From Brachyspira murdochii DSM 12563 (GTDB lineage: Bacteria > Spirochaetota > Brachyspiria > Brachyspirales > Brachyspiraceae): a stretch of 64,000 nt of DNA. Below the pieces are notes generated by a model, which had not been told where the DNA came from, searched no databases, and saw nothing but the letters and a program-made list of their open reading frames with translations. The translations under genes and the position numbers were made by a program. Of the stretch, positions 31,411-31,613 are shown piece after piece; positions within the stretch are counted from its first letter, which is position 1; every line of letters begins with the position of its first letter. The stretch lies in the NCBI RefSeq assembly GCF_000092845.1, contig NC_014150.1, positions 2,355,510 through 2,419,509 of the forward strand, read 5' to 3'.

Positions 31411-31416
31411 GATTTA

Positions 31417-31445
31417 TTGTATTTTTTATATATTCTTGTTATAAT
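31417..31445 (+). promoter_or_regulatory. Promoter of glycosyltransferase 2 leader
   Basis: TTGTAT (31417-31422), 17-base spacer, TATAAT (31440-31445); start near 31452, just before the leader ORF. Confidence 0.65.
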
Positions 31446-31472
31446 AGGTATATATTTTTTTTAGGAATTATT

Positions 31473-31613
31473 ATGTACAGACAGACAGACAGACAGACAG
31501 ACAGACAGACTAAAAAATATTTTATAAAAATTATTAACCCCACACTTCTATTTTTATATAGAAGTGTGGGGTTTTTGTGTTTAACTAAAAAGAAGGATAT
31601 ATATAATGAATAA
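31473..31613 (+). CDS. Repeat-containing leader ORF overlapping glycosyltransferase 2
   Basis: A 46-codon ORF with AGGA about 6 bases upstream of ATG 31473. Codons 2-13 cycle through the ACAG repeat (R-Q-T-D). In the present register it runs across the terminator hairpin (31538-31576) and ends at TAA 31611, overlapping the glycosyltransferase ATG (ATGAATAA). In either other register the frame stops right after the repeat (31511 or 31525), before the hairpin. Its translation is inferred, not shown. Confidence 0.6.
   Translation: MYRQTDRQTDRQTKKYFIKIINPTLLFLYRSVGFLCLTKKKDIYNE
31477..31510 (+). repeat. ACAG tetranucleotide repeat (8.5 units)
   Basis: 34 bases of perfect repeat within the leader ORF of glycosyltransferase 2. 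Confidence 0.97.
31538..31576 (+). terminator. Strong intrinsic terminator inside the leader of glycosyltransferase 2
   Basis: CCCCACACTTCTAT pairs perfectly with ATAGAAGTGTGGGG (14 bp, 6-base loop), then five T residues. It lies after the leader promoter and before the glycosyltransferase start; it could also end the radical SAM transcript. Confidence 0.9.

Follow-up and report, generated by a model that had tools for sequence, protein, structure and literature searches.

A repeat-bearing leader frame that crosses a terminator-like hairpin upstream of a Brachyspira murdochii glycosyltransferase gene: a candidate phase-variable attenuator with counterparts across the genus

The stretch of DNA analysed here (the window, 64,000 nucleotides) corresponds to positions 2355510-2419509 of the single-contig, 3,241,804-bp genome of Brachyspira murdochii 56-150T, which was determined from Sanger and 454 reads with a stated error of less than 1 in 100,000 (CP001959; PMC3035287). 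Its forward strand carries an intact gene for a 333-amino acid glycosyltransferase of family 8 (GT8; 31606-32607; Pfam PF01501, E value 5e-15), the putative switched gene, preceded by the ribosome binding site AAGAAGG (31590-31596). Further upstream on the same strand, direct reading identifies a putative promoter (31417-31445), which consists of the boxes TTGTAT (31417-31422) and TATAAT (31440-31445) at a distance of 17 nt. The -35 box matches the consensus at only three of six positions, and a promoter consensus scan is uninformative in such AT-rich DNA, as promoter-like sites are equally frequent in shuffled sequences; the promoter region is conserved in the orthologous regions of three relatives, B. 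hampsonii 30446 (G006), an uncultured Brachyspira (G018) and B. intermedia PWS/A (G009). A short leader ORF lies downstream of the promoter and has a ribosome binding site of its own, AGGA (31463-31466), a 6-nt spacer and the start codon ATG at 31473 (31463-31475 altogether, forward strand), and the start region AGGAATT(A/C)TTATG is also found in B. hampsonii and G018. Within this ORF lies a non-triplet simple sequence repeat, (ACAG)8.5 (31477-31510, forward strand, 100% identity), the sole ACAG array of its kind in the B. murdochii genome. In its present register, the leader encodes 46 amino acids (31473-31613, forward strand), and its stop codon overlaps the GT8 start codon at 31606 as ATGAATAA.

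Between the repeat and the GT8 gene, sequence and structure prediction place an intrinsic terminator on the forward strand: a hairpin with a 16-bp stem (31536-31573), seven G-C pairs and a 6-nt loop, which is followed by the U-rich tail UUUGUGUUU (31536-31584 in total; MFE z-score -3.65). A search for Rfam cis-regulatory RNAs at the locus returned no family at the gathering score, and a long-range pairing between the GT8 ribosome binding site and the 5' end, suggested by fold prediction, has no evident counterpart in G018. A first-pass annotation of this DNA had already located the promoter at 31417-31445, the leader start at 31473 with its ribosome binding site and 8.5 ACAG units, and the overlap of the leader stop with the glycosyltransferase start at 31606, with all of which direct reading agrees; the perfect terminator hairpin it had described also exists, although with a 16-bp stem at 31536-31573 instead of 14 bp at 31538-31576. 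Its claim that the leader crosses the hairpin in one register only likewise holds: the present register runs to 31611, whereas a shift by one nucleotide ends the leader at a TAA at 31511-31513, 24 nt before position 31538, and a shift by two nucleotides ends it at a TAA at 31525-31527, 10 nt before that position (both on the forward strand). A fusion of the leader with GT8 in one frame, as in a classical contingency locus, was ruled out, because the frame of the gene contains a stop at 31525, ahead of the gene start.

Both the repeat and the hairpin at this locus exceed chance expectation. The open frame alone does so only weakly, as the gap between the repeat and the gene is crossed by an open frame in 7.9% of dinucleotide shuffles, and the case is therefore decided by comparison: the open frame becomes strong evidence because the arrangement recurs throughout the genus.

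Repeat leaders are not confined to this gene in B. murdochii. On the reverse strand of the window, a neighbouring GT8 gene (29306-30265), which is interrupted by an in-frame TGA at 29537 and is probably a pseudogene, lies behind a leader ORF (30270-30437, reverse strand) with GCAA repeats (30318-30359); the long frame of this leader stops 4 nt before the glycosyltransferase start, and no terminator hairpin was found in it. In a second glycosyltransferase island (L017, 826-845 kb), one ACAAC and one GCAA leader occur, both open to near the gene in the present register. The ACAAC leader carries a weaker hairpin followed by TTATGTGTTTTAA, which resembles the TTTTTGTGTTTAA tail of the window locus. 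About 135 bp from the 3' end of a radical-SAM gene are present twice, on either side of the intact GT8 cassette (31275-31410 and about 32650-32785); B. hampsonii and G018 share this duplication, which suggests an old cassette insertion.

The first-pass annotation had proposed a comparison of unit number, leader frame and hairpin across relatives. In G018, the hairpin is conserved: all 15 compared base pairs are kept, with three double compensatory changes, two changes to G-U and none broken, and the stem is preserved together with its U-tract. The G018 repeat comprises at least 19 ACAG units (two contigs, each ending in 76 nt of ACAG), compared with 8.5 units in B. murdochii and none in B. hampsonii, so that the unit number at this locus differs between species. 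The leader of G018, however, is closed in all three registers despite the conserved hairpin, and its GT8 gene is broken. In B. hampsonii, the loss of the repeat goes together with a decayed hairpin, which favours the attenuator proposed below, while the leader is still open and ends in a GTGA overlap; GT8 contains one internal TAG. The glycosyltransferase gene is broken in the orthologues of B. intermedia and G007 as well, and leader and GT8 have both decayed in G018, B. intermedia and G007. The locus is thus ancient in this group but seems to have stayed intact only in B. murdochii.

To place the locus in a wider context, a sample census was taken in 26 Brachyspira genomes, which covered GT8 neighbourhoods and scans for four repeat units and yielded 80 repeat-gene arrangements at 67 distinct arrays, the nearest downstream gene being taken as the target. 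In 53 of the 67 leaders, a frame stays open from the repeat until no more than 45 nt separate it from the gene, compared with 20.5 ± 2.7 (sd) expected from shuffles; because some leaders are orthologues or paralogues and were counted as independent, the significance of this figure and of the hairpin statistics given below is overstated, the effect still being large. For gaps of 130-190 nt, the frame is open in 18 of 20 cases (1.8 expected), and repeats in the opposite orientation have an open frame in none of 13. The remaining registers often stop 0-14 nt after the repeat. In one register, many leaders end on or overlap the gene start, as the window leader does, in several cases as ATGA. The targets that were checked include GT8, GT11 and CgtA/GT2-like glycosyltransferases, an FkbM methyltransferase, radical-SAM proteins and unassigned proteins. 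Among leaders with an upstream ATG, 24 are predicted to be ON and 16 OFF. Two paralogues in G007 with identical flanks (150/150 and 99/99 nt) differ in their number of CCAAG units, 11.8 versus 10.8, with predicted states OFF and ON, respectively. For orthologous ACAGTCT leaders, the predicted state is ON with 11.1 units and OFF with 15.1. The sequences themselves show every part of the arrangement, its register dependence and its recurrence across the genus.

Several loci met in the census deserve a separate mention. The G007 paralogues belong to a group of four tandem paralogous cassettes (L099, G007:C1:1438000-1454000), each with a CCAAG leader and a hairpin, two of which share flanks and differ in units. 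An AAGCATC heptanucleotide array in front of a putative secreted 818-amino acid protein (L093, G014:C2:6000-22000) represents a different type of switch, as one register would produce an in-frame fusion with the gene. At a further locus, about 39 ACAAC units (197 bp) precede a small secreted-protein-like gene (L256, G004:C1:2248000-2252500).

Terminator-like hairpins, defined by a fixed criterion of at least seven perfect pairs, at least three G-C pairs and a U-tail, occur in 9 of 52 repeat-to-gene gaps. The corresponding counts are 0 of 3,120 for shuffles, 1 of 52 for the reverse strand of the gaps and 0 of 70 for divergent upstream regions; the window hairpin is the strongest of the nine. 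Eight of the nine hairpin leaders have one or more registers that stop ahead of the hairpin and one or more that stop within it or past it. Three leaders (L103, L115 and L232) have a longest register that comes to its stop within the hairpin, with 38-55 nt still to go to the gene, and these fit antitermination better than stop-start coupling for that reason: a ribosome within the hairpin would block its folding, yet it would not be placed on the start codon. Most sister leaders are devoid of a terminator hairpin, and many of these end in ATGA overlaps and therefore fit coupling. The window locus combines both features, the crossing of a hairpin and a stop-start overlap. The L115 leader (G010:C1:654643-657666), with 35 AAGC units, apparently possesses two successive terminator-like hairpins in front of an FkbM methyltransferase-like gene.

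Taken together, these observations point to the window locus as a probable phase-variable attenuator of GT8, in which slipped-strand variation would set the register, and translation of the leader would both block the terminator and deliver ribosomes to the gene. The gain or loss of one ACAG unit (4 nt) through slippage would change the leader register. In the present register, the ON state, a ribosome would translate over the hairpin and prevent the terminator from folding, and it would finish at the glycosyltransferase start codon, where it could reinitiate. In the OFF state, the ribosome would leave at 31511 or 31525, the hairpin would fold and RNA polymerase would terminate upstream of the gene. 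Rho is present in B. murdochii, and polarity could add to the silencing, especially in leaders without a hairpin. From sequence comparison, we infer that the repeat slips here, that the hairpin terminates transcription, that translation relieves this termination, that ribosomes reinitiate and that surface glycans are affected. That the leader acts as a phase-variable switch of some kind is very probable; within it, a contribution of stop-start coupling is likely, and one of terminator relief fairly likely.

The strength of the two closed registers can be judged from work in E. coli, in which termination amounts to about 90% when a stop codon lies 28 nt upstream of the terminator and to less than 10% when this distance is 5 nt (PMC4824070). 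By these distance rules, the two closed registers should differ, and the stop at 31525 may leave partial read-through, because it lies only 10 nt from the hairpin; three output levels are predicted, full ON, an intermediate level for the stop at 31525 and OFF for the stop at 31511. E. coli terminators that lie in the first 100 bp of coding sequence can also act despite translation (PMC4824070), and relief of the window terminator may be incomplete, because the hairpin starts 65 nt after the ATG. The logic of the first-pass annotation, by which the register decides whether ribosomes cross the terminator, is thus supported comparatively by the recurrence of the design, the register stops, the compensatory changes and the unit differences with opposite predicted states, but its two closed registers should not be equivalent. 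The antitermination that it proposes need not exclude coupling, as the leader ends on the gene start both here and in many sisters. Terminator relief is not required by the leader family, because many of its members lack a hairpin, and for the same reason, together with the position of the leader stop on the start codon, the switch probably involves translational coupling as well. The closed registers of G018 count against the proposed attenuator, as does L218, where a terminator is present and all registers are closed.

The most serious competitor of this attenuator is pure translational coupling, by which the leader would bring ribosomes to the overlapping glycosyltransferase start in one register only, the hairpin being insulating or incidental. 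The frequency of stop-start overlaps, ATGAATAA here and ATGA in several sisters, and the scarcity of hairpins among sister leaders speak for it, and the arrangement resembles that of lex2A/lex2B, in which lex2A carries the repeats (PMC3116884). Coupling alone would, however, account neither for the strong enrichment of terminators in repeat-to-gene gaps nor for the maintenance of the window hairpin and its U-tract through compensatory changes, and it fits poorly with the three leaders whose long register ends in the hairpin, far from the gene; moreover, the AAGAAGG site of GT8 looks strong enough for independent initiation. We therefore regard coupling as the sole mechanism as rather unlikely.

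The repeat could also be a relic at a locus that is locked and has lost switching. With 8.5 units, the array is short compared with sister loci of up to about 39 units, and the decay of the orthologues, with broken glycosyltransferase genes in B. hampsonii, G018, B. intermedia and G007, points in the same direction; yet the array is perfect, the GT8 frame is intact, 19 or more units occur in a close relative and whole-unit changes are seen throughout the genus, which makes a locked locus improbable. Still more improbable is a terminator that serves the radical-SAM gene upstream or is left over from cassette insertion, with a glycosyltransferase promoter downstream of it and an accidental leader ORF. 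The position of the cassette between the two copies of the radical-SAM 3' end would suit this idea, but the stretch from the radical-SAM stop to the hairpin contains a conserved promoter and a leader with its ribosome binding site, positions 31577-31606 offer little room for a promoter, and the identical layout recurs in front of other genes.

Parts of the proposed attenuator are familiar from other systems. Tetranucleotide repeats control LPS glycosyltransferases in Haemophilus influenzae (lex2A/lex2B, lic1A, lic2A, lgtC), and such repeats may control a glycosyltransferase gene here; lex2A, a repeat ORF that precedes lex2B, is the parallel drawn by the first-pass annotation. Most Haemophilus tetranucleotide contingency loci carry the repeat in the frame of the gene itself, and we know of no internal terminator described for these four systems. 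In Neisseria meningitidis siaD, a frameshift is followed by Rho-dependent termination, so that, as proposed here, a repeat frameshift turns a translation stop into transcription termination; however, the siaD repeat lies within the gene, and termination depends on Rho instead of a dedicated intrinsic hairpin. In the leader-peptide attenuators of pyrBI and trp, the position of the ribosome in the leader decides whether a terminator forms, as would be the case here, but these systems sense metabolites, whereas the input at the window locus would be a heritable repeat number.

The first-pass annotation had considered a terminator within a repeat leader ORF to be new, but the mechanism was demonstrated experimentally in 2014 for the pil1 and pil3 loci of Streptococcus gallolyticus, where a leader ORF with GCAGA repeats is followed by a premature terminator and out-of-frame changes in unit number switch expression (Danne et al. 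2014, PMC3894217). Switching of pil1/pil3 depends on translation, as judged by chloramphenicol and a start-codon mutant, and on the hairpin, the deletion of which locks the system ON (PMC3894217). Both systems possess non-triplet repeats in a short leader ORF with a ribosome binding site and a downstream intrinsic terminator, predicted from sequence and structure at the window locus, and in both the register sets whether the leader stops well before the hairpin or inside or beyond it (in the window, 31511 or 31525 versus 31611). The gain or loss of units has been shown by experiment to switch transcription of pil1/pil3, whereas its Brachyspira counterpart is deduced from sequence. The pil1/pil3 loci further differ in that they control a pilus operon of a Firmicute, their leaders stop near, inside or past the hairpin and well upstream of pilA, and two of three registers are ON; the window locus is found in a spirochaete, precedes a glycosyltransferase gene, uses ACAG units, has one of three registers crossing the hairpin and a leader that overlaps the gene start. 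No report of a repeat-leader switch in Brachyspira was found in the open-access literature searched, and what appears to be new is a spirochaete version that spans the genus, is placed on surface-glycan genes and has a leader overlapping the gene start.

Brachyspira species live in the gut of pigs, poultry and people, and few means of surface variation are known to us in these spirochaetes. We tentatively put forward that the genus may harbour a modular contingency system, in which dozens of repeat leaders with units of 4, 5 or 7 nt precede surface-glycan and other genes, and register-controlled translation would relieve a terminator in a subset of them and deliver ribosomes to the gene; expression would then be combinatorial and, at loci with a closed-register stop near the hairpin, three-level. 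Leaders with a hairpin and leaders without one form a natural series by which antitermination and translational coupling can be told apart. If the proposal is true, the phase-variable attenuator of the S. gallolyticus type would be no isolated curiosity but would have a multi-locus counterpart in another phylum, and a set of repeat-tuned switches in front of genes for glycosyltransferases, methyltransferases and other proteins would account for heterogeneity of surface glycans within a single strain.
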